DNA of 45,309 bases from a virus: the IMG/VR virus record IMGVR_UViG_3300013102_000015, positions 1 through 45,309 of that record. One strand, 5' to 3'. Positions 4,303 to 45,309 of the stretch are shown here, piece by piece. The position numbers and the translations under genes were made by a program. The notes under the pieces were generated by a model, which did no database searches, was not told the DNA's origin, and saw nothing but the letters and a program-made list of their open reading frames with translations. Positions within the stretch are counted from its first letter, which is position 1. Each line of letters starts with the position of its first letter.

Positions 4303-4542
4303 CTATTTTTTAATATGTATTGCTGATCGTGGTACAAAATATTTCCCTGATAATTTGCTTAACTTCTTAGCTTTAGGAATCCAAAGATCAATATTAGCAG
4401 AGGAGCTATTATAATCTCCGGACTGGAAAAATCCATATGCAAAGTTAAAAGCTTGACCTTTGTTTTCCGCTATTACCTCCACTTCAAGATCAGGAGTATT
4501 ATTTTTCTTAGTTCCTTTTAGTTTTAAAATGTAAGTTTTCAT
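4303..4542 (-). CDS. Small unknown protein with its own promoter
   Basis: 79 residues, basic, starting with a beta-strand-like run (TYILKLKG) and containing EVEVIAENKGQAFNFAYGFF, which resembles the small alpha/beta domains of phage accessory proteins. No membrane segment or catalytic motif. It begins 24 nt after a strong TATCTTTG box (4567-4574) within the recurring promoter-leader module. The tRNA-like gene follows it on the same strand and may share its transcript. Function unknown. Confidence 0.6.
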   Translation of the reverse strand: MKTYILKLKGTKKNNTPDLEVEVIAENKGQAFNFAYGFFQSGDYNSSSANIDLWIPKAKKLSKLSGKYFVPRSAIHIKK

Positions 4543-4566
4543 ATGCTTTGATTTTTAATTACACTT

Positions 4567-4596
4567 CAAAGATACGAATAATTTTTAAACTACAAA
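4567..4596 (-). promoter_or_regulatory. Promoter module for 4303-4542
   Basis: TTTG (4596-4593), 18-nt spacer, TATCTTTG (4574-4567), then leader TGTAATTAAAA. An A/T tract extends upstream to about 4625. It is one member of a family of near-identical modules, the others being at 10507, 15015, 24127, 45042 and 45122. Confidence 0.8.
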
Positions 4597-4630
4597 ATAT
4601 TTTATATAAAAATTTAAAAATATTTTTATC

Positions 4631-5092
4631 TTATGGCGTATCCGGGAAAAGTGGCTGCTCTTGAATAAGCGTGTTCTCGGTCTTATCTGTAAGCCCGAGG
4701 TCTCTAGCTATGATATTTTCCTTAAACGCTCCTACAGCTGCCCCTCTGAACTTCTGATCAAACATGGCGTTCCGTATCCGCGCGATGACATCCGCATACT
4801 CCGAGTATCTGTTATCCTTATTCGACTTATAATCATCCAGTTTAGCAATAACAGCCCGTTCAGATAAGAAATCCTCAAAGCCTGCCCAATTGTAAGGCTG
4901 CACATTTTCCAATGTGATGATCCTTCCTGCTGATTCTCCTCCTCTGATAAAGTCCTGTCTTTCTGCTGGCATTTCATCCACCATTTGAAAATAATCACAA
5001 GCTAACTCCCATAACTGCTCAGGAGATTTTAAATTTTTAGGCCGTCCAGTGTTTTTCCTCCACTCCCAGTATCCTAAGTCGCCTCGTTTCAT
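4631..5092 (-). CDS. terS: Terminase small subunit (DNA packaging protein)
   Basis: 153 residues from the chosen start. The N-terminus MKRGDLGYWEWRKNTGRPKN, a helical region with LWELACDYFQ near 27-36, and a late segment where GAAVGAFKENIIARDLGL precedes DKTEN match the small terminase/packaging proteins common in phages of Bacteroidota. Such proteins recognise the packaging site and recruit the large subunit. The start at 5092 is preferred over 5128, because the 12 extra residues are hydrophobic and A/T-encoded and do not fit the family. The gene lies directly downstream of repeat region 1, whose hairpin may separate it from the preceding operon; a packaging site in that region is possible. 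Confidence 0.75.
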   Translation of the reverse strand: MKRGDLGYWEWRKNTGRPKNLKSPEQLWELACDYFQMVDEMPAERQDFIRGGESAGRIITLENVQPYNWAGFEDFLSERAVIAKLDDYKSNKDNRYSEYADVIARIRNAMFDQKFRGAAVGAFKENIIARDLGLTDKTENTLIQEQPLFPDTP

Positions 5093-5131
5093 AATGTAAA
5101 TTTTTATCAAAAATAGAAAATTTTCCAAAAA

Positions 5132-5172
5132 TAACCTCTAAACAATAAATAAAAGTTATTGTTTAGAGGTTA
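5132..5172. repeat. Perfect 17-bp inverted repeat at the edge of repeat region 1
   Basis: Arms 5132-5148 and 5156-5172 with a 7-nt loop ATAAAAG. The core CTAAACAATAA...TTATTGTTTAG recurs exactly at 24189-24217. In the leftward direction the stem is followed by TTTTTGG, so it can act as a terminator. Its AAACAAT content is shared with all other repeats of the region, which suggests a protein-binding site as well. Confidence 0.8.
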
Positions 5173-5400
5173 ACCTATTGATTTTCAGTACAGTTACAAG
5201 CCAAATTTAGCTATTTTAAACAATAAACAATAAAACTTCCACACCCCTATATACGTATATGCGTTTTTACACGGGATTTTTACAGGTATATATACATATA
5301 TTTAATTATATAAAGTTTTACTATATTTATTGTTTTATTGTTTAGATCATTGGTAACCCCCATGAATAAAGAGGTTCTTTCTAAACAATACATTGTTTAA

Positions 5401-5430
5401 ACTTGTTTAAACTTGTTTAAACTTGTTTAA
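5401..5430. repeat. Three tandem 10-bp units ACTTGTTTAA
   Basis: Exact head-to-tail copies at 5401, 5411 and 5421, directly after palindrome 5382-5399, whose right half also ends in TTGTTTAA. A 10-bp period places each unit on the same face of the helix. A shorter version (TTGTTTAAATTGTTTAAACTTGTTTAA) occurs in pieces at 24458-24484. Confidence 0.85.
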
Positions 5431-5595
5431 AAATGACCTGTTTTTCATCTTATTTTAATATTAGAAAATCTTGCGTAATATTAGCTAATATTAGATTTTG
5501 AGTAAAAAATCCCCGAAATGCTTCACAGAAAGTTTTACCAATTTTATTGTTTTATTGTTTAGATCTTCTGTATCTGCCATTATCAGGGACTTTAC

Positions 5596-5618
5596 TTTTA
5601 AACAATCATTGTTTAAAA
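5596..5618. promoter_or_regulatory. Perfect operator-like palindrome
   Basis: TTTTAAACAAT (5596-5606), one C, ATTGTTTAAAA (5608-5618). Related palindromes stand at 5382-5399 and, with one mismatch, 24445-24466. Odd-length dyads of this size are typical of dimeric repressor or initiator sites. It lies only a few bases after the stop of the gene at 5623. Confidence 0.65.
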
Positions 5619-5622
5619 TAGT

Positions 5623-10241: not shown

Positions 10242-10484
10242 TTATTTATTAAACCAAATTACATGAGTAAATTCAGGTCGGTGTTCAGCTGTCCAAAACT
10301 CATCGGGATCTACGGGAATACTAGATTTTTTAGATTCTGTAGCATAATACCCCCTACCATCTGAATCTATTATAGTTCCATCCTCACACATTTCTGAGAA
10401 ATCCTCAATTAAATACAGATCTCCGTATTTTGGTAAATCTGTTAATGTATAATCTTTTTCTGATTTTTCATTAAAAAGTTTCAT
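10242..10484 (-). CDS. Small acidic unknown protein heading the helicase operon
   Basis: 80 residues, strongly acidic, with DLYLIEDFSEMCEDGTIIDS near 22-41 and a late WTAEHRPEFTHVIWF segment. It starts 22 nt after a strong TATCTTTG promoter box and is followed after 3 bases by the UvrD-type helicase, so it is first in that operon. The abundance of acidic and aromatic residues could suggest a DNA mimic or inhibitor, but that is only a guess. Confidence 0.6.
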   Translation of the reverse strand: MKLFNEKSEKDYTLTDLPKYGDLYLIEDFSEMCEDGTIIDSDGRGYYATESKKSSIPVDPDEFWTAEHRPEFTHVIWFNK

Positions 10485-10506
10485 AATACTTTGTTTTTAA
10501 TTACAT

Positions 10507-10536
10507 GTCAAAGATACAACTTAATTTCAAACTACA
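10507..10536 (-). promoter_or_regulatory. Promoter module of the helicase operon
   Basis: TTTG (10536-10533), 18-nt spacer, TATCTTTG (10514-10507), leader ACATGTAATTAAAA. The 21 bases around the -7 box and leader are identical to the plus-strand promoter at 45122. An A/T tract extends upstream to about 10570, just after the terminator at 10583. Confidence 0.85.
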
Positions 10537-10582
10537 AAATATTTTTTATAAAAATTTAAAATTATTTTTTTAATAAAAGAAA

Positions 10583-10639: not shown

Positions 10640-12010
10640 TTAAAAAAATTTTTTAAGATACTTAGACACCAGGGCTTTCACAGATTCCATTAAACCGTTT
10701 TGACCTTTTTCTTTTCGATCTAAATTCTTTACCACAGAATAGTCCTCTGTATCTTTGCAAAGGATACGATTAATAATAACTATCTGATCCTGCCCCTGCC
10801 TGTGTAGCCTGGCGTTAAACTGTTGGTATAACTCTAAGCTATCATTAAGGCCAAACCAGGCGATAACATTACTCCCCTTCTGTAGATTAAGCCCATGCCC
10901 TCCAGAGGCCGGATGCATAACTAGCATGGGAATTTTTCCGGCATTCCAATCTTTAATATGTTGATCAGTCTTAAGGTGTACCGCGTTTTTAAATTTCTTC
11001 AGGATCCTATCCCGGTCATGTTCAAAACAGTAAGCAACTAATATAGGTTTACCATTAGCCTCCTCTACAATATCCTCTAGTGCGTCTAGCTTCAGATTAT
11101 GGATATGATGTACTTGCTTATCAGAATCATATACCGCACCATTAGAGAATTGTAATAACTTACTTCGTAAAGCTGCCGCATTAACGGCCGTAATCTCATC
11201 CAATCCGGAGAATATCTCCAGTACTGCCTCCTCTTCAAACTCATGGTATTTTTTCCTAATATCGGGAGGAAGATCTATTACAATATCATTTATGATGGGC
11301 TCCTCCATATCCAGATAGTCCTCTTTCTTCATAGATATTACAATATCTTGAATTAGTTCCGGTATGCGTTTCTCCCCATATTCTGTGACATCATATCCCC
11401 ATCCGTTATATCTTTTTTCAAAATATAACCCTCGGAACTTGGTTACCGTTTTATGAAGTCTTTCTCCCTCATCAAGTAAATATATCTGGCTCCACAGATC
11501 TATAAGTCCGTTAGGGGCGGGAGTTCCTGTAAGCCCTACTACTCTATCCACTGATGGAATAGCCTTACGAAGAGCTTTAAATCTCCTAGAGGATGGGTTT
11601 TTAAAAGATGATAGCTCATCAATAACTATCATATCGAACGGAAGATTATGACCCCCATACAATGCGCACAGCCACGGGATATTATCCCGGCCTATCGTAT
11701 AAATATGAGCTTTATTATTAAGTGCTTTTAATCTTTGCTTTTCGGTCCCTATTACCTTTGAAATAGTAAGACTGCTAAGATGAGCCCATTTACTGATTTC
11801 CGCATCCCATACACTTTCTGCTACTCGCTTAGGGGCTATGATAAGTACCTTCATTACCTCCAACTCTTGAAACATTAGATATTTTATAGCGGTGAGAGTA
11901 GAAACTGTTTTACCTAATCCCATATCCAGGAACAAAGCCGATCGGGAATGATCTATAATATGGTCAACGGCTTTATCTTGATAGCCGTGCATCTGAGATC
12001 TGTGCATCAT
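10640..12010 (-). CDS. SNF2-family DNA helicase/translocase
   Basis: 456 residues, the compact form found in many phages. Walker A is DMGLGKTVST near 26-35; the DExx motif appears as VIDELSSFKN near 129-138; the Q-rich motif VI is QQFNARLHRQGQDQ near 395-408. GLTGTPAPNG (motif III region) is also visible. All ATPase elements are present. The combination of SNF2 helicase with VRR-NUC nuclease, VapE-type primase and PolA is a recurrent phage replication set. It overlaps the methylase gene by 4 bases. Likely role: remodelling or branch migration during replication or recombination. Confidence 0.9.
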   Translation of the reverse strand: MMHRSQMHGYQDKAVDHIIDHSRSALFLDMGLGKTVSTLTAIKYLMFQELEVMKVLIIAPKRVAESVWDAEISKWAHLSSLTISKVIGTEKQRLKALNNKAHIYTIGRDNIPWLCALYGGHNLPFDMIVIDELSSFKNPSSRRFKALRKAIPSVDRVVGLTGTPAPNGLIDLWSQIYLLDEGERLHKTVTKFRGLYFEKRYNGWGYDVTEYGEKRIPELIQDIVISMKKEDYLDMEEPIINDIVIDLPPDIRKKYHEFEEEAVLEIFSGLDEITAVNAAALRSKLLQFSNGAVYDSDKQVHHIHNLKLDALEDIVEEANGKPILVAYCFEHDRDRILKKFKNAVHLKTDQHIKDWNAGKIPMLVMHPASGGHGLNLQKGSNVIAWFGLNDSLELYQQFNARLHRQGQDQIVIINRILCKDTEDYSVVKNLDRKEKGQNGLMESVKALVSKYLKKFF

Positions 12011-13899: not shown

Positions 13900-14991
13900 T
13901 TAATTATCTATTCCGCATTGTGCAAATGGTTCGCAATTTTCTTCATACTCGTCATTCTCATTTTTCAAATCAATAGGAGGTAATACTGTTGCTTGTTTTA
14001 GGAAATATGTAGCTGATTTATGCGATCTAAACATAGTTATTGGAAATGTCCATTCTGAAGTATCTTTATCTCCGGGCACATGATGTGAATATTTTTTTTC
14101 TAGATATGTGAATCCGTCAAAATATTGAGGAGTTACCTGAGCTATTTTTATCAGCTTTTTCTCTGATTTTTTCCAACACGTTTTACAATTACCCTCAAAC
14201 CCTTCTAATTCTAATCTAAAGGGCTGCAATTTCCAATATCCGTTTATTTGTTTTTTAGTCATAGGTTTTATTTCTATACACGGATAAATAATTTTATTCT
14301 TTTTTCGGTGTATAGAAACTCTATCTATTTCGTCGGATCTTATGCCTATAGCTAAGTAATAATTAGTTCCCCAGCCTATTGATCTTATGTAAGATTTTAT
14401 AGGATCTGATTTTAGATATTGAGTGCATTTAGGATGGGCGTGATTAAATAATCCATATTTCTGTACTGCTTTTTCAAATAGAGATATATCCCGGGTAGCA
14501 CTTTCAAAATTTACTATTTTATGCCTTACTCCTTTTCCTCTTTCTGGGGCTATTACAGCTTCTACCCATACTATAGGAATGCCCCATTCATCCATACACT
14601 TTTTAATAAATTTTAAAGTCCTTTCATCCTCTTCTCCTGTATTCGCAAATATAAAAACCATATCCCATATACCACTGTACATTATCCAAAGAAAATAAGC
14701 CATCCAGGCAGATGTCTCTCCCCCGCTGAAAGATATAACTACTTTAGGTTTATTAGGAATCATGTGGGTCACTTTATCCCATCCCTCTATTTTTAATCCA
14801 AATCCATAAGATGCTGTAAAATCTTTAGAATAGGTAGAATAAAATATTCTATCACTATGTATAGCATCTATTCTGTAAATAGTTTTTTTATTTTTAAATT
14901 GGAAAAAACTACCATCAGGTAATCTCCTTATTTCTTTAATTTCTCCTTTTTTGAAGTCTAAAGGTCTTAGATTAATATCTTTATATTTCAT
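13900..14991 (-). CDS. PAPS-reductase-like PP-loop ATPase
   Basis: 363 residues. SGGETSA at 89-95 is the PP-loop that binds ATP or PAPS in this superfamily. Downstream come NTGEEDERTLKFI, HPKCTQYLKSDPI near 198-210 and CKTCWKKSEKK near 270-280; the Cys residues recall the metal-binding cysteines of phage PAPS-reductase-like proteins. An extra N-terminal domain of about 80 residues (beta-rich) has no match I can name. In phages these proteins may serve sulfur transfer or nucleotide/nucleobase modification rather than assimilation. It has its own TATCTTTG box and begins the run down to SNF2. Confidence 0.85.
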   Translation of the reverse strand: MKYKDINLRPLDFKKGEIKEIRRLPDGSFFQFKNKKTIYRIDAIHSDRIFYSTYSKDFTASYGFGLKIEGWDKVTHMIPNKPKVVISFSGGETSAWMAYFLWIMYSGIWDMVFIFANTGEEDERTLKFIKKCMDEWGIPIVWVEAVIAPERGKGVRHKIVNFESATRDISLFEKAVQKYGLFNHAHPKCTQYLKSDPIKSYIRSIGWGTNYYLAIGIRSDEIDRVSIHRKKNKIIYPCIEIKPMTKKQINGYWKLQPFRLELEGFEGNCKTCWKKSEKKLIKIAQVTPQYFDGFTYLEKKYSHHVPGDKDTSEWTFPITMFRSHKSATYFLKQATVLPPIDLKNENDEYEENCEPFAQCGIDN

Positions 14992-15014
14992 AAGTATTAA
15001 TTTTAATTATGTAC

Positions 15015-15022
15015 CAAAGATA
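15015..15022 (-). promoter_or_regulatory. Promoter -7 box of the PAPS-reductase-like gene
   Basis: TATCTTTG on the minus strand, 23 nt before the ATG at 14991, with the shared ATAATTAAAA leader. The -33 position is TTTT rather than TTTG, so it may be weaker than the other modules. An A/T tract extends upstream to about 15075. Confidence 0.65.
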
Positions 15023-15073
15023 TAAATAAAAATTGAATATAAAAATTATTTTTATAAAAATTTAAAATTATTT

Positions 15074-15226
15074 TTAAATGTTCTTTCCTTTAGCTATTCC
15101 CTCTAAATAATTAAATAGGATAATTCCTGTCAGTATCATAAATGTTATCCAATCATTTACCAGAAAATAGGCCCCAGTCATATTAATTACAAAGGCTAAT
15201 ATTTCTAAATACTTAAATATTTTCAT
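15074..15226 (-). CDS. Small membrane protein (50 aa)
   Basis: ATG at 15226, TAA at 15074: MKIFKYLEILAFVINMTGAY followed by FLVNDWITFMILTGIILFNY, two hydrophobic helices, and a charged tail (EGIAKGKN). It starts immediately after the primase/helicase stop, in the same direction. Its small size and two helices resemble other small phage membrane proteins; role unknown. Confidence 0.6.
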   Translation of the reverse strand: MKIFKYLEILAFVINMTGAYFLVNDWITFMILTGIILFNYLEGIAKGKNI

Positions 15227-15227
15227 T

Positions 15228-17624
15228 TTAATCTAATTTTCTAACATAATATTTCTGTACCCCATAATGTTTAAAATTTCGGGTAGATTTGGAAGCTTCC
15301 CAATCCGGTAGACTTCTCATAATATCATTATATTCACGAGATTTATACCTGTCCAGATCCTGCTTATTCTTGCCCATGCATTCGGTCCAAATCTCGGCCA
15401 CGCATATGTATTGCCTCTGATATTTTCCTGGAATTCTTAACTCATCATCCTCTGAAAGATAAGACATTCTATCAGTTATGCCCATATCCTCCCATCCTGC
15501 CGGGAGAGGAATATTTAAAAACTTATCGATAATTCCCATACGATCATCAGACTCAGCATGTAAAAGTTGCTCCTTTTGGGCTATTATTTCCGCTTCAGGG
15601 GATAAGATTAACGGCTCATTATTTCGGTACAAATGAACAGCTTCCGCCCATACTTGGTGCAAGAATTCATCATCATTAAATACTTTCAACATCTTAGGAT
15701 TATCTACTACTTTGATATCATGAACATCAATAGGATTAAAACGTCTGTTTTCTGAATCTCTCAGGAAATCCTTTGTATTGGTAGTTCCCCAAAATACGGT
15801 CTGCCTTGGATACGTCTCTGTAGTTCTGCCATACGCAGGTCTAAACTGATCTTCTCTTTTTGTGATGTAATGCTTAATACTCTCCAGATCGGCTTTTTTA
15901 AACCCGGATAGCTCGGCAATCTCCATAAGCCATACCCCGTGAAGCTGCTCCATACTTTCCTTACCGGTCCATCCCATGAAACTATCAGACGCCCATCCTT
16001 TACCTAACCAGTCTATGAATGAAGATTTTCCTGTGCCCTGCGCTTTTCCGCAAAGAACTAAAACCATATCATATTTAACCCCCGGATTATTAACTCTTGC
16101 TACTGATGCTACCAATTGTTTACGTATGGATTCTCTTGTATAAATGTTATCAGGGGCTCCGAATAAGTCAATAAGAAGAGTATCTATTCGGGGATTGCCG
16201 TCCCATTCTAAAGACTTCAGATAATCCCTAATAGGATGAAATGATTGTTTATAAAATTCCAGATTGAGGGCGTCATCAATTTTCAGAGTACCCGTTATTC
16301 CATAAATACACTCAATGTAATTTCGTATACCTGAATAATCTACATTACATATAGGCTCCGGACTATTAATTCTTCTCCAGGGCATTGTAGCAGTGATATA
16401 ATTCTTATTGTCAAATAGATTAAGCCTCAGCTTACCCTTAAGACGGATATCATTACTAAAAATAAGGCTTAAATTCCCGGCAGAACTTAGATAATTTCCT
16501 TTACCGTCTACCTCCAGGTCTGTCATCCAGTCTACACTCTCTTCCTCTATAGCTTCAGAATATAGATCACTATCTTCAAAATCATATTTTGCCTCAGATA
16601 CTCGCTCAGATGCTATAGTTTTACGGGTTTCTTTATCTTCCCTTACCATATCCTCCATAGCAATAAAACTCTTTAGTTTTGATCCTTCCTGAGCATCAAA
16701 ATCCAAATGCCCGAATAGATGAATACGAACTAAATCCCATACATTACAAAGCTTACCGGAGCACGGATCAGTACCGTGGTGAGAATAAGCAAACTTATTA
16801 TCGTAGGTAATAAGTCCGGAAGCAGTAGATCCTTTACAGTATGTATACCTACCGTCAGTAGTAGGAGTATATATTTCCGGAAGGAATTTATCTATAACCT
16901 CTTCAATAGAATAGGTTCTACAGAATGCTCCTATGATACCTTTTTTTAATTCTGGGTCCTCCTGCTTTTTAGCAGCGTTGTATATCTCAGTCATTTTAGC
17001 ATCTGAAGTAGGCCACAAACTGCTATCCTTCCAATCAATATACTGTGCTAAAACTTTATCCGCATCTAGCCAGGGACCATCCTGGTATTGAAAATAATAC
17101 TCTACATCTTTTGGGGTTGAGGCCCAAAACATGAGACGGTTTACATCAAACGTAGTATTATCAAATAAATCAACTCCTATCGTGCCCGCTATTTTACGGG
17201 ATATCGCTACATATTCTTCCGGGCTTACGTCTCTTGATAAGGGCATGATAAGCCTATATCTCGGAGAGTCAGGGGAATGCTTATGCGTGGCATGCAGGAT
17301 AGCAGCATTATCGAACATCATTTCGAAATCATCCCATAAATGAATATGAGCAAAATCTATATCTAATGTTAATAATCTTCTGTGCCCTACAGAGATTATA
17401 TTTCTTTTTCCGCCTACGAGATATCCGCCTACATATCCTCCCACATCCTTTATCCGGTGCTGCTCCTGCTTAGTTGCAGCTATAAATTCTTTAAATGTTT
17501 CGGTAGTAACTACTGGAGTAGCTATTTTTTTTAAGAATTCAGACCAAAGTATGTTCTTATTTTTCCATACTTTACTCTCAGCACTTCTGCCTTCCGCTAT
17601 ATCTATTTTACCATCGTAAATCAT
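15228..17624 (-). CDS. VapE/VirE-type primase-helicase
   Basis: 798 residues. The N-terminal part has LDIDFAH near 96-102 and, further on, FDVNRLMFWASTP, consistent with an archaeo-eukaryotic primase-like (VirE-N/BT4734-like) domain. A middle linker follows. The C-terminal part is a virulence-associated E helicase with Walker A GKAQGTGKSS near 525-534 and LMEIAELSG as the acidic Walker B region, then KREDQFRPAYGR near 595. One protein would therefore prime and unwind DNA at the phage fork. It lies next to DNA polymerase, nine bases apart. Confidence 0.87.
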   Translation of the reverse strand: MIYDGKIDIAEGRSAESKVWKNKNILWSEFLKKIATPVVTTETFKEFIAATKQEQHRIKDVGGYVGGYLVGGKRNIISVGHRRLLTLDIDFAHIHLWDDFEMMFDNAAILHATHKHSPDSPRYRLIMPLSRDVSPEEYVAISRKIAGTIGVDLFDNTTFDVNRLMFWASTPKDVEYYFQYQDGPWLDADKVLAQYIDWKDSSLWPTSDAKMTEIYNAAKKQEDPELKKGIIGAFCRTYSIEEVIDKFLPEIYTPTTDGRYTYCKGSTASGLITYDNKFAYSHHGTDPCSGKLCNVWDLVRIHLFGHLDFDAQEGSKLKSFIAMEDMVREDKETRKTIASERVSEAKYDFEDSDLYSEAIEEESVDWMTDLEVDGKGNYLSSAGNLSLIFSNDIRLKGKLRLNLFDNKNYITATMPWRRINSPEPICNVDYSGIRNYIECIYGITGTLKIDDALNLEFYKQSFHPIRDYLKSLEWDGNPRIDTLLIDLFGAPDNIYTRESIRKQLVASVARVNNPGVKYDMVLVLCGKAQGTGKSSFIDWLGKGWASDSFMGWTGKESMEQLHGVWLMEIAELSGFKKADLESIKHYITKREDQFRPAYGRTTETYPRQTVFWGTTNTKDFLRDSENRRFNPIDVHDIKVVDNPKMLKVFNDDEFLHQVWAEAVHLYRNNEPLILSPEAEIIAQKEQLLHAESDDRMGIIDKFLNIPLPAGWEDMGITDRMSYLSEDDELRIPGKYQRQYICVAEIWTECMGKNKQDLDRYKSREYNDIMRSLPDWEASKSTRNFKHYGVQKYYVRKLD

Positions 17625-21551: not shown

Positions 21552-21604
21552 AATCTTTAAATTTTTAAATGTTAATAAATTTTAAATGTTGAATAATTCT
21601 TTTA

Positions 21605-21635
21605 CAAATGTAGTTTTTATTTTTTAAATATCAAA
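21605..21635 (-). promoter_or_regulatory. Promoter of the DUF2815 gene
   Basis: TTTG (21635-21632), 19-nt spacer, TACATTTG (21612-21605) on the minus strand. Unlike the other modules the leader is longer (about 50 nt to the ATG at 21551) and lacks the ATGTAATTAAAA sequence. Confidence 0.75.
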
Positions 21636-21664
21636 ATATTTTTTAATAAATTTTTAAAATATTT

Positions 21665-22882
21665 TTATGTAAAATCTCTGATGGCTGATTCAGTGCCCAT
21701 AGATGGACGGCTATCTTTTTCAGAAACCAAAGAAGGTTTCCCAGGTGGCTTAACCCATAATCCTCCTAATACTTCTTTAAACTGGACTTTACCCATTAAT
21801 TTCTCCATAGCTGTAATGCCGTTCAATTTATGAGTGAATATTTGTTTATCCGGGTAAATATTATCCCTAAGAGTTTCTATTACCTTTTCCTGATCCTTCC
21901 AAATTCGGTTAGACCTTCCCTCTACCAGCTTAAGCCCTTTATATGTTTTACCAGATAATGCCTGATCATGCATATACGCATGTACTGAAGTAATCCATTC
22001 TTTTATAACGGGAATTTGTAAATATAACTTAACCATTTCATCATCAGACAGAAGATTATCGGGTTTATCATTATCTGCGAATTCCATTTTAGCAGCTTCT
22101 ATGCTGAATTCATAAAGTGCCCTACATTTAGGTGCTACTTTACAAAATCTACAATGGGATCCGGCTTTTAATTCTCCCTCTCCTTTAAATGCTTTTTGTG
22201 CTAATGGGGCTAGTTCATTTTTTGCCCAATTTAGCAGATCCTCTACTGTGATATCCCAAGTAGAAATATGATCTAACCGGGGTTGTACAATTGTAAGGCG
22301 GATAATATCTATCTCGTGGGTTAAGCTGTATCGCAAATAAGCTCCCAAAGCGTATAATTTTAATTGAGAGTTATCTTCTGCATCTACCTGAACCCCTTTA
22401 CCGTATTTTAAATCCGTTACTTTCAGAATATATGTTTCAGAAGGATTAAGATATTGAGCTGCAACGGGCAAAATAATAGCATCACATGTCCCATATCCTT
22501 CAGGAACGTAAGCGCTAAAATTTACTTTCTCTTCAATTATAAGAGTTCCGCCTTTAGATGCTGCTAATTGTTCTAGAACATAATCCGTATATACTGCTAC
22601 ATGTTCTTCCATATCATCAGTATACAATTCGTGTGATCTTAGTTCAAATAGTTTCGCTTTATACGCCTGATCCGATAATATACCTTGACTTTTTTTAAGC
22701 TCTGTATCTGCAAACTCATGAGCCAAAGTACCCTCTTCTGCATGAACTGAAGTTTTAGAGGGGAATGGGTCTTCCAATCTTGCGGATGGGGTGCACTTAA
22801 GCCATCTACTTGCTCCAGAAGCGGAGAGAAGGGCGTGGGCCCTTTCCCCGTGGTTTATATCTTCTGTAGTTACTTTAGGCAT
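21665..22882 (-). CDS. DUF2800 PD-(D/E)xK nuclease (RecB/Cas4-like)
   Basis: 405 residues. Opening ERAHALLSASGASRWLKCTP near 13-32, HAEEGTLAHEFAD near 47-59, then DLKYGKGV near 157-164, giving the H...D...xK nuclease core; CRFCKVAPKCRAL near 246-258 is the cysteine cluster that, with C30, may hold an iron-sulfur cluster as in Cas4/AddB nucleases. DUF2800 genes accompany DUF2815 and PolA in phage replication modules and probably process DNA ends in recombination. It is the third gene of the operon started by the XRE-like gene, sharing one base with the upstream gene. Confidence 0.87.
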   Translation of the reverse strand: MPKVTTEDINHGERAHALLSASGASRWLKCTPSARLEDPFPSKTSVHAEEGTLAHEFADTELKKSQGILSDQAYKAKLFELRSHELYTDDMEEHVAVYTDYVLEQLAASKGGTLIIEEKVNFSAYVPEGYGTCDAIILPVAAQYLNPSETYILKVTDLKYGKGVQVDAEDNSQLKLYALGAYLRYSLTHEIDIIRLTIVQPRLDHISTWDITVEDLLNWAKNELAPLAQKAFKGEGELKAGSHCRFCKVAPKCRALYEFSIEAAKMEFADNDKPDNLLSDDEMVKLYLQIPVIKEWITSVHAYMHDQALSGKTYKGLKLVEGRSNRIWKDQEKVIETLRDNIYPDKQIFTHKLNGITAMEKLMGKVQFKEVLGGLWVKPPGKPSLVSEKDSRPSMGTESAIRDFT

Positions 22883-23523
22883 TATAGCGATTTTAGGAAA
22901 TCCATAAATGTAATGAAATGGGATTCGTCTAAGTTTGTTAACTTAGTAGCGCCTAATTCATTAAGTTTAGCTACGATAGCATCTCGATTGGCGTCTACTT
23001 TTGCCCCCAATTCTACTTTTAAAACATCTAAGGTTATTTCAGAATCTGTTGATTTAGATTTCTTTTTATCCTCTTTCATATCGGTTTCAGTATCATTATT
23101 CTCTTCCTTTTCCGAAGTATCCTTATCCTCCTCTTTTTCTGAAGAGTTAAAGTGTCTTAATATAAGTTTAGCTAATTTAGCATTAGTATTTTTACCTTCA
23201 GTAGCGGCCCATTCAATACCAAGAGAAGAAGCTATAACTTTAAGTTCTTCATTAGGGATAGCTTTTAATTCATCCTCCGTGTACTCGCTTACAGCCCCTG
23301 CTTTTTCTAATTCTTCTGTTTTGAATTCCTTCGTAATCATAGCTTCAGATAGAAAAGCTGTACTAGGCGCTAAGGCTTCTTTTGTCATTGAACCCACCGC
23401 AAATGCAACAGATTCAGCTACATTTTGATTATTACCCCCTAGGGCTAATGTTAATTTACCTAATAATTCCGCATCCCCCGGATTATATGTATCCAGGTCA
23501 AGTGTAAGATTAATTCTTGCCAT
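22882..23523 (-). CDS. Unknown acidic replication-operon protein
   Basis: 213 residues. N-terminal globular part with LTLDLDTYNPGDAELLGKLT near 6-25, a low-complexity charged linker rich in Glu, Lys and Asp (about 128-160), and a C-terminal helical domain (LDVLKVELGAKVDANRDAI, about 168-186) ending DFLKSL. The linker joins two domains as in scaffolding or DNA-binding adaptors. It overlaps both neighbours, so it is translated with the XRE-like protein and DUF2800. Function not recognised. Confidence 0.6.
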   Translation of the reverse strand: MARINLTLDLDTYNPGDAELLGKLTLALGGNNQNVAESVAFAVGSMTKEALAPSTAFLSEAMITKEFKTEELEKAGAVSEYTEDELKAIPNEELKVIASSLGIEWAATEGKNTNAKLAKLILRHFNSSEKEEDKDTSEKEENNDTETDMKEDKKKSKSTDSEITLDVLKVELGAKVDANRDAIVAKLNELGATKLTNLDESHFITFMDFLKSL

Positions 23524-23938
23524 TTTGTTTATTGTTTAAAATTAAATTGTCTAATTCTGTGAAATACTGTGATAGAGGCATTGTATTAGCATCTACGATA
23601 ACTGCCTCATGAAATATAGAGTTTTTATGGAAAATCTTAGTTATCCATGTATCTCTGTCTAATTCGGCCCGGTAGTCCTCGTTTTCAAAAGCTAATGAAT
23701 TATCAGAAGCCTTACGAGGTAAGTTCTTCCAGTTGCCCTGTTCAAATAGTTCATTAACAGGTATCCCAGTAAGGAATGATAATTTTGAAACCTGCTCAGT
23801 ATTTAAAAGAGCTTCACCATTAATGACCCTGCTTAATGCTATCATAGGATATTTATTCTCAGGGAATAATTCCGCAGCCACTTTTTTTGTATCTAAATTA
23901 TATTTCTCTATGACAGAGGATAAGATAAATTTATTCAT
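23510..23938 (-). CDS. XRE-like protein heading the replication operon
   Basis: 142 residues. The first 65 residues form an HTH pattern: KKVAAELFPEN, then PMIALSRVINGEALLNTEQV as turn plus recognition helix, then LSFLTGIPVNELF, as in Cro/C1-type helix-turn-helix proteins. The rest is a mixed domain with WITKIFHKNSIFHEAVIVDA. It is the first large gene of the replication operon, two repeats away from repeat region 2, so it is the best candidate in the genome for the protein that binds AAACAAT palindromes. That link is inference. No repressor-type dimer domain is visible. Confidence 0.7.
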   Translation of the reverse strand: MNKFILSSVIEKYNLDTKKVAAELFPENKYPMIALSRVINGEALLNTEQVSKLSFLTGIPVNELFEQGNWKNLPRKASDNSLAFENEDYRAELDRDTWITKIFHKNSIFHEAVIVDANTMPLSQYFTELDNLILNNKQNGKN

Positions 23939-24108
23939 ATGATTATTTTAATTGTTACTATCCAGACTATGACATTCACACAGGCCAGAATTATAAATAA
24001 TTCTGACATATTATATTTTCTCTCTTTGTGTTGAGTTGCGATCCCTATAAATCCAAAAAGGTAAAGGACATATAGAAAAGATAAAAATGCTACTGTAAAT
24101 TTTTTCAT
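23935..24108 (-). CDS. Small membrane protein (57 aa)
   Basis: Start chosen at ATG 24108 (MKKFTVAF), 18 nt after the TATATTTG box; an upstream in-frame ATG at 24129 would overlap the promoter. Two hydrophobic segments (about 6-21 VAFLSFLYVLYLFGFI and about 39-56 FIILACVNVIVWIVTIKI). It overlaps the XRE-like gene by 4 bases and leads the replication operon. Function unknown. Confidence 0.6.
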   Translation of the reverse strand: MKKFTVAFLSFLYVLYLFGFIGIATQHKERKYNMSELFIILACVNVIVWIVTIKIII

Positions 24109-24126
24109 GTCGTTTTGTTTACATGG

Positions 24127-24134
24127 CAAATATA
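24127..24134 (-). promoter_or_regulatory. Promoter -7 box of the replication operon
   Basis: TATATTTG on the minus strand followed by leader CCATGTAAACAAAA, a variant of the shared leader. The -33 position lacks TTTG, so an activator bound in the adjacent repeat region 2 may be needed. An A/T tract (24135-24185) lies between it and the repeats. Confidence 0.6.
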
Positions 24135-24188
24135 CAATTAATATTTAAAAATAAAAATAATTTTTACAAAAATTTAAAAATATTTTGC

Positions 24189-24480
24189 CTAAACAATAAA
24201 TAAAAGTTATTGTTTAGACCTTAACTATATGAAAGTCAATATAGTTACAGGCCAAAATTACTCATTTTAAACAATAAACAATAAAACTTGCGCACCCTTA
24301 TATATGTATATGCGTTTTTATATGTGTTTTTATATGTGTATTTTAGGTGTATATTATCTATATACCATAATATAAAAAGATTTAATATATTTATTGTTTT
24401 ATTGTTTATAATACAAAAAAGCCCTCTGATAGAAGGGCTTTATCTTTAAACGATGTATTGTTTAAATTGTTTAAACTTGT
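24189..24480. repeat. Repeat region 2: candidate origin or operator array (no gene)
   Basis: About 290 bp without a gene. It holds the inverted repeat CTAAACAATAA...TTATTGTTTAG (24189-24217), AAACAAT/ACAATAAA direct repeats (24264-24289), TATATGTATATGCG near 24301-24314, TTTATTGTTTTATTGTTTA (24390-24408), the one-mismatch palindrome 24445-24466, and TTGTTTAA units up to the stop at 24481. Bases 24189-24320 align without gaps with 5138-5269; later parts drift by a 13-nt indel. Both regions have the same orientation and lie upstream of leftward operons: here the replication operon, at region 1 the terminase. Confidence 0.75.
24418..24441 (-). terminator. Terminator of the lysis operon
   Basis: AAAGCCCT (24418-24425) pairs with AGGGCTTT (24434-24441), 8-nt loop, with a T run (TTTTTT) in the leftward direction. 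It lies inside repeat region 2, after the last gene (24481-24702). Confidence 0.82.
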
Positions 24481-24702
24481 TTAAGATTTATTCAATTCAT
24501 CTTGTAATCTTAAGATTTCGGATTTTGTTCTCTCTAAAAGCTTGTATCTTTCATCTATGTAAATCTTAAAATCAGTATCGTATTCATCATAATTTTCGAT
24601 GAAAGAATTAAGTAGCACCTGAGTAGATTCTATTTGTTTTAATTCAGAATCTAACGCAGTGTTAACAAATCCCCCGATACTCTCTTTTGGTGGTGTTGGC
24701 AT
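24481..24702 (-). CDS. Small coiled-coil unknown protein
   Basis: 73 residues. A proline-rich start (MPTPPKES) and a long helical remainder, with heptad-like leucines (KLLERTKSEILRLQDEL) suggesting a short coiled coil. It is the last gene after the endolysin, and its stop codon lies at the edge of repeat region 2. A lysis-accessory role is possible only by location. Confidence 0.55.
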   Translation of the reverse strand: MPTPPKESIGGFVNTALDSELKQIESTQVLLNSFIENYDEYDTDFKIYIDERYKLLERTKSEILRLQDELNKS

Positions 24703-44679: not shown

Positions 44680-45015
44680 TTATTTGTTAGTTTCTAAATA
44701 ATTAAGCCTGTCAAGTTCGGCAGCTAATAGTGCCGCTGCTATTCGGATCCTATCCTTTTTATCTTTAAGCGCTAATTTGGTAAACCATTCCTTGTCCCAT
44801 CCCTTAGGACAAACAACCCCGTATTGTCTTACATCTAGGGGATAATCATCATAATCTATTTTTAATAGTTCATAGGCAGCCGATATTAATTGCTCCGCAC
44901 CATAATATTCTGGATGCTCTGCCTGGAATTCTGCGCTAAACCCGTATTTGTCTATCTGTTTTCTTCTCTCTTGTAAAATGGCTTTTACACCTTCGCTTAA
45001 ATCTAATTCATTCAT
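44680..45015 (-). CDS. Conserved phage protein resembling dATP/dGTP diphosphohydrolase N-terminal type
   Basis: 111 residues, helical. The opening ILQERRKQIDKYGFSAEFQA near 13-32, YYGAEQLISAAYELL near 37-51, WDKEWF near 73-78 and RIRIAAALLAAELDRLNYLE near 89-108 match the ERxxQ...H...L..AA...W...LxxAxAxxxAEIDRL pattern of a small family seen widely in phages, related to the N-terminal part of dATP/dGTP diphosphohydrolases. The usual EHD motif is altered to AEHPE. It leads its operon from the promoter at 45042. Confidence 0.6.
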   Translation of the reverse strand: MNELDLSEGVKAILQERRKQIDKYGFSAEFQAEHPEYYGAEQLISAAYELLKIDYDDYPLDVRQYGVVCPKGWDKEWFTKLALKDKKDRIRIAAALLAAELDRLNYLETNK

Positions 45016-45041
45016 AATTTTATTTGTTAATGATTACATGG

Positions 45042-45071
45042 CAAAGATAGGAATTAATTTTGAACTACAAA
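45042..45071 (-). promoter_or_regulatory. Promoter of the 45015-44163 operon
   Basis: TTTG (45071-45068), 18-nt spacer, TATCTTTG (45049-45042), leader CCATGTAAT, ATG 26 nt later. It is divergent from the plus-strand promoter at 45122; the two share about 120 bp of A/T-rich spacer. Confidence 0.82.
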
Positions 45072-45121
45072 ATATTTTTTAAATTTTTCTAAAATTATTT
45101 TTTAATATCAAATATTATATG

Positions 45122-45129
45122 TATCTTTG
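45122..45129 (+). promoter_or_regulatory. Promoter -7 box of the junction-crossing gene
   Basis: TATCTTTG on the plus strand, leader ACATGTAATTAAAA, ATG at 45158. The bases around the box and leader are identical to the promoter at 10507. At the -33 position only TTTA/TTTT is found. Confidence 0.7.
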
Positions 45130-45157
45130 ACATGTAATTAAAACCCATTACAGTATT

Positions 45158-45309
45158 ATGAAAGCAATTTTAAAAACAAAAGCAGGAAGCGCATACAGCG
45201 CATTTAACGGACACACTTTCCAAGTGGTTGAATTTAATAACTCTTATATATCTCTACAGGGATTAGGATTTAGTTCTACTTCGTTAGTAGATTTTACATT
45301 TACTGAGGT
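45158..45309 (+). CDS. Unknown small protein, 5' part (continues at base 1-295)
   Basis: ATG at 45158; the frame stays open to the end of the window and continues in frame at the left end because the terminal 123 bases repeat. The whole gene encodes 107 residues. Product described at 1-295. Promoter box at 45122. Confidence 0.85.
   Translation, partial: MKAILKTKAGSAYSAFNGHTFQVVEFNNSYISLQGLGFSSTSLVDFTFTE
45187..45309. repeat. Terminal direct repeat, right copy
   Basis: Exact copy of bases 1-123; see the left copy. Confidence 0.97.

Follow-up and report, generated by a model that had tools for sequence, protein, structure and literature searches.

The 45,309-nucleotide stretch of viral DNA analysed here (the window), an IMG/VR virus record, contains two arrays of short AAACAAT iterons, copy 1 at 5132-5622 and copy 2 at 24187-24473, and both are considered, with a probability of about 0.8, to be candidate replication origins of the SaPI/PICI kind bound by the VapE primase-helicase. 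Positions 1-123 of the window are repeated perfectly at 45187-45309 as a 123-bp direct terminal repeat, which makes it very likely that the map is that of a whole genome, closed and complete. On the minus strand, which carries almost every long ORF, structural and lysis-side genes are followed by copy 2, an XRE-like gene (23510-23938, minus strand, first among the long genes of the replication operon), the replication operon, copy 1, the terminase small subunit gene terS (4631-5092, minus strand, GP3_package, ATG at 5092) and terL. The replication operon has a gene in the position of a PDDEXK-type exonuclease and genes encoding an Enc34-type ssDNA-binding protein, PolA, the VapE primase-helicase (15228-17624, minus strand, Pfam VapE-like 2e-68), which is the proposed initiator, and an SNF2-type helicase. 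Copy 1, between the replication operon and terS, and copy 2, upstream of the operon, stand at opposite ends of the replication module, 19 kb apart, and neither adjoins vapE in the window. The host is probably a member of the Bacteroidota, since those relatives whose hosts are known infect members of Elizabethkingia, Croceibacter, Flavobacterium and Bacteroides.

The AAACAAT arrays are indeed duplicated and stand far above chance expectation. The colinear, gapless duplication of 5138-5269 at 24189-24320 that a sequence-only reading had described, with a fixed offset of 19051, was confirmed (112 of 132 bases identical), and the identical blocks it reported are present at 5138-5167, 5213-5238 and 5255-5269 (15 nt), the first two being 30 and 26 nt long rather than 29 and 25 nt. 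The blastn match between the copies is wider (5117-5420 and 24169-24484, approximately 320 bp, 76%, E 1e-53). There are 32 occurrences of AAACAAT/ATTGTTT in the window, 12 of them in copy 1 and eight in copy 2, and the densest 450-bp stretch has 11, compared with a maximum of four in 200 dinucleotide-preserving shuffles. Three ACTTGTTTAA units are present in copy 1 (5401-5430), as is a second TTTATTGTTTTATTGTTTA, which occurs only once in copy 2; both had been noted at the outset. The TTTAAACAAT-N-ATTGTTTAAA palindrome attributed to both copies is perfect in copy 1 (5597-5617), whereas its equivalent in copy 2 (24445-24466, TTTAAACGATGTATTGTTTAAA) has one mismatch. A second occurrence of the left half (5312-5389 and 5529-5606, 76%) gives copy 1 the extent of approximately one and a half arrays. 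An Rfam scan and an exact 27-mer scan of viral contigs returned no match, and neither did blastn of copy 1 against phage records, since conservation is limited to the plan of the array and its short iterons.

Read in gene sense, each array consists of an outer palindrome, a tandem iteron pair AAACAATAAAACAAT, an AT-rich core of about 87-100 bp, an inverted tandem pair ATTGTTTATTGTTT, 50 bp of further sequence and a hairpin AAACAAT...ATTGTTT. By coordinate, copy 1 begins on the terS side with an outer inverted repeat (5132-5172, 17-bp arms, 7-nt loop, ssDNA fold z -8.6), followed by the inner tandem pair TAAACAATAAACAAT (5217-5231, plus strand), the AT-rich core (5239-5325), a candidate unwinding element of low stability with the alternating Y-R stretch TATATACGTATATGCG, the inner pair in opposite orientation, TTTATTGTTTTATTGTTTA (5326-5344, minus strand), the outer palindrome TCTAAACAATACATTGTTTAAA with the three ACTTGTTTAA units (5380-5430) and the duplicated left half, made up of the second TTTATTGTTTTATTGTTTA and the perfect palindrome TTTAAACAATCATTGTTTAAA (5543-5617). 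Copy 2 has the corresponding outer inverted repeat (24187-24219), inner pair (24268-24282, plus strand), AT-rich core (24290-24389), inner pair in opposite orientation (24390-24408, minus strand) and outer palindrome with one mismatch and an extra half-site (24445-24473); in this copy, the intrinsic terminator of the preceding genes (24418-24441, minus strand) stands between the outer palindrome and the iteron pair. The least stable 90-bp window of the core falls within the top 0.9% of the genome for copy 1 and the top 0.1% for copy 2. Iteron pairs in opposite orientation are thus present on both sides of an AT-rich region, as in origins of the SaPI/PICI type, with an inner iteron spacing of 7-8 bp in the window compared with about 9 bp in most relatives, so the geometry is not identical.

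Seven promoter-like repeats of approximately 75-95 bp, of the Bacteroidota type (TTTTGTA, about 19 nt, TATCTTTG), precede genes in the window, at 4535-4632, 10477-10575, 14984-15080, 21576-21672, 24108-24192 and 45009-45107 (all minus strand) and at 45069-45184 (plus strand); the final pair, of opposite orientation, overlap each other and are possibly divergent. One of them occupies the gap 3' of vapE, and the one at 24108-24192 (TTTTGTA..TATATTTG) lies between copy 2 and the operon. Overlap of the copy 2 array with this promoter repeat is limited to the edge of the outer hairpin (24187-24192), and the arrays can thus not be equated simply with the promoters. The switch in GC skew that had been proposed as a check is found at neither copy; the skew is negative almost throughout, as co-directional genes would lead one to expect, which makes this check uninformative.

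Regarding related phages, a search of viral contigs by a gapped iteron pattern detected eight contigs, and the plan of iterons, AT-rich core and inverted iterons is present in P2559Y, TCUEAP1, G001-G009 and others. Both arrays stand at the same two positions as in the window in the contig G002 (TerL 79% identical) and in the complete isolate P2559Y; the position of copy 1 is kept in G002, P2559Y, TCUEAP1, G003 and G009, and that of copy 2 in G002, G007, P2559Y, TCUEAP1 and G009, so that the positional conservation of both copies, put forward from the sequence as a check, holds in G002, P2559Y, TCUEAP1 and G009. In the isolate TCUEAP1, which has no AAACAAT array, the plan nevertheless recurs at the same two positions with the iteron TGAGACA (TGTCTCAA/TTGAGACA). 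Among 12 further contigs, AAACCAT was detected in both arrays of G029 and GAAACAA in both arrays of G031; G030 and G036 have two arrays each, and G009 has two with AAACAAT. The code has changed in both copies at once in TCUEAP1, G029 and G031, as one shared binding protein would impose, and the suggestion that both copies are bound by the same protein is supported accordingly. At least eight closed or complete genomes contain two arrays (the window, P2559Y, TCUEAP1, G009, G029, G030, G031 and G036), one before the replication operon and the other usually before the terminase genes, the second array of G029 and G030 being placed only outside the replication module since terL was not found there by the queries used. 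No origin is described for these phages in the literature searched, a search outside which most subscription papers fall.

One copy alone may be the working origin and the other a regulatory decoy, titrating the initiator or controlling the adjacent promoter; spare iterons regulate the level of the initiator in iteron plasmids, and some relatives (G035 and G037) have a single clear array. Only one array was detectable in each of the VapE- and XRE-encoding phages G033, G035 and G037, and the 7-mer cluster test found none in another such phage, BF486P2. The full symmetric plan with a low-stability core is, however, present in both copies in the window, P2559Y, TCUEAP1 and G009, and the decoy reading is judged plausible but clearly short of an even chance.

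The arrays are linked to vapE. In cluster-bearing contigs with enough sequence the replication module is common (XRE, PDDEXK exonuclease, Enc34-type SSB, PolA, VapE and SNF2) while the structural modules differ, and AAACAAT arrays were absent from phages with related TerL but without VapE. In a motif-blind 7-mer test, bidirectional arrays with an ACA core were detected at 41 of 80 VapE loci; the control gave a bidirectional cluster at 12 of 46 TerL loci, but with other motifs. In the distant VapE phages phiFL4A, LWP01, Bacuni_F1, L160, L164, L166, L167 and L168 an array lies directly 3' of vapE, with the iterons GGATAC in phiFL4A, GTCAACA in LWP01 and GTAAACG in Bacuni_F1.

Several other arrangements were observed. 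The contig L167 has two arrays (1220-1510 and 11444-11700) that differ in code, one of GGATACA immediately 3' of vapE and one of GTCAACA about 10 kb upstream. A symmetric array with a near-perfect 42-bp palindrome in its core is found in L071/L077 (G004:26080-27026, G008:9507-10453), with three more iteron blocks on one side at a spacing of approximately 170-190 bp. In a phage that has a related TerL and no VapE (L086:7690-10017 and G010:30020-30300), a GTGTAAC array lies immediately 3' of the gene for a protein combining Prim-Pol and DUF3987 with a Fis-type HTH at the C-terminus, which repeats the design with an initiator of unrelated kind. The TerL relatives L020, L022, L029, L032, L049 and L052, without VapE hits, have bidirectional GTAGTCA or GTGACTA clusters, which are possibly the origins of yet other initiators.

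Regarding the protein that would bind the iterons, VapE is homologous to the Rep/PriRep helicases of SaPI and PICI elements by both phmmer and Foldseek. Full-length VapE matches 7PDS at 1e-60 in phmmer and its C-terminus alone does so at 1.5e-7; the model of residues 691-798 (mean pLDDT 87, about 95 in the winged part) shows a winged helix, itself at residues ~740-798, and the six best PDB matches of the modelled C-terminus in Foldseek correspond to the six 7PDS chains ("PriRep1 with dsDNA"). SaPI5 PriRep1 is named in PMC10516667 where that article cites another paper, which is presumably the source of the 7PDS structure.

For 50 VapE proteins to which an iteron was assigned, the identity of the winged helix that is left after allowing for the remainder of the protein declines as the iteron difference grows (r -0.45, 0 of 400 permutations, with labels shuffled without a tree and relatedness uncorrected), compared with r -0.01 for the primase and r -0.12 for the helicase in the same test. 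Nearest-neighbour contrasts at domain level were mixed, and the domain-level covariation is partly due to distant pairs. In a scan of every VapE column, Asn783, at the end of the first wing strand (model residue 103), was present in 33 of 39 proteins with TAA-ACA iterons and in none of 11 with others (p 3e-7, iteron classes being assigned by hand from computed consensuses), far ahead of the runner-up column (2e-3); in the closer set the counts were 33 of 35 and 0 of 7. The Asn783 column is a stronger result than the domain-level covariation. Covariation and homology lend support to the proposed binding of the iterons by the VapE wing.

The XRE-like protein was, with the VapE-type primase, one of two binders put forward initially, and the arrays could be operators whose palindromes it binds, repressing or activating the early and late operons. 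Its gene is the first long one after copy 2, the TTTAAACAAT-N1/2-ATTGTTTAAA arrangement suits binding of a dimer, and both arrays are upstream of operons, with Bacteroidota-type TAnnTTTG promoters between array and gene. Nevertheless, arrays are present in L157, L164, L166, L167 and other contigs in which no XRE relative was detected (E 0.1, whole contigs), there is no array before XRE in G004 and G005 and only a degenerate one in G003, and the sites share only the hairpin edge at 24187-24192 with the promoter. Where XRE is encoded as well (32 phages), the iteron is tracked by the VapE winged helix (r -0.435, 16 of 1000 permutations) but not by the XRE recognition region (r -0.009, 444 of 1000), the shuffling again disregarding relatedness. 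The XRE-like protein is thus disfavoured, and an operator function is improbable. It is more doubtful still that the arrays are pac sites or sites coupling packaging to replication that are recognised by TerS, for although copy 1 adjoins terS and TCUEAP1 is reported to be a headful packager (PMC7237756), copy 2 is 19 kb from copy 1, the array is absent in phages with related TerS/TerL but without VapE, it lies 3' of vapE in other phages and its iteron tracks VapE.

Among known systems, the candidate origins most resemble those of SaPI/PICI elements, where short iterons form two sets, one on either side of an AT-rich region (PMC6092414, PMC7581432). This arrangement is described as invariable in PICI origins and as without parallel among other known bacterial replicons (PMC6092414), and the C-terminal domain of SaPI Rep binds the downstream iterons (PMC7581432). 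The primase-helicase fusion homologous to PriRep1 (7PDS), with a C-terminal DNA-binding domain that is predicted in VapE, and the array directly 3' of the initiator gene in the distant VapE phages are further points of likeness. The window differs in that its arrays belong to a whole phage rather than a satellite, are present twice and away from the 3' end of vapE, and have extra outer palindromes, a hairpin and a different iteron sequence. The arrays are therefore suggested to work like PICI origins, and strict membership is not claimed because neither array is immediately 3' of the initiator gene in the window.

The SCCmec Cch2 origin (AAGTG iterons) is also served by a self-loading helicase, related to the above, for which iteron binding via the C-terminal domain has been shown (PMC7581432), but Cch2 has no fused primase and the origin has three direct iterons only, at one site. 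Origins of iteron plasmids and of the lambda type share iterons and an AT-rich region, whereas the arrays of the window are symmetric and two-sided and no separate initiator gene with internal iterons was seen in the window. A DnaA-dependent iteron origin was rejected, with 57 one-mismatch DnaA-box matches in the window against 57.7 expected and hence no enrichment; the sole match in copy 2 is the iteron itself. With SV40- and papillomavirus-type origins, in which clusters of short sites recruit a self-loading AAA+ helicase as a double hexamer, there is a functional analogy (PMC7581432), but the DNA-binding domain is different and no membership is implied.

The SaPI-like plan, the location 3' of vapE in distant relatives and the covariation with the VapE winged helix support the candidate origin among the functions first proposed for the arrays, while a partition function found no support. 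The suggested coordination of replication with packaging or late transcription is not supported either, nor does the preferred explanation require it. Given their fit to the PICI plan, the arrays are best explained as origins that VapE binds and opens. Several VapE molecules would bind the AAACAAT iterons via the C-terminal winged helix, and the oppositely oriented iteron sets would bring two helicase hexamers into a head-to-head position across the AT-rich core, which they would melt and prime; replication would then start in both directions, with PolA and the Enc34-type ssDNA-binding protein supplied by the phage. Such origins would be present twice in the genome, one per end of the replication module; that the arrays act as origins, that replication is bidirectional and that both copies are used at the same time are inferences.

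New here, as candidates, are SaPI/PICI-like origins in ordinary phages, moved off vapE and doubled around the replication module. More tentatively, at somewhat less than even odds, a large group of mostly Bacteroidota-type phages may be two-origin replicons, in which one PriRep-type primase-helicase fires two SaPI-like origins bracketing its operon, with their codes kept identical by coevolution with Asn783. Since arrays of the SaPI plan are present in many ordinary phages, phages and satellites would share an initiation system. Candidate origins can now be offered for phages whose records mark none, with an iteron assigned for about 40 VapE loci and a single-residue prediction of initiator specificity, and the question is raised why a pair of candidate origins flanking the replication genes is retained in so many of these phages.
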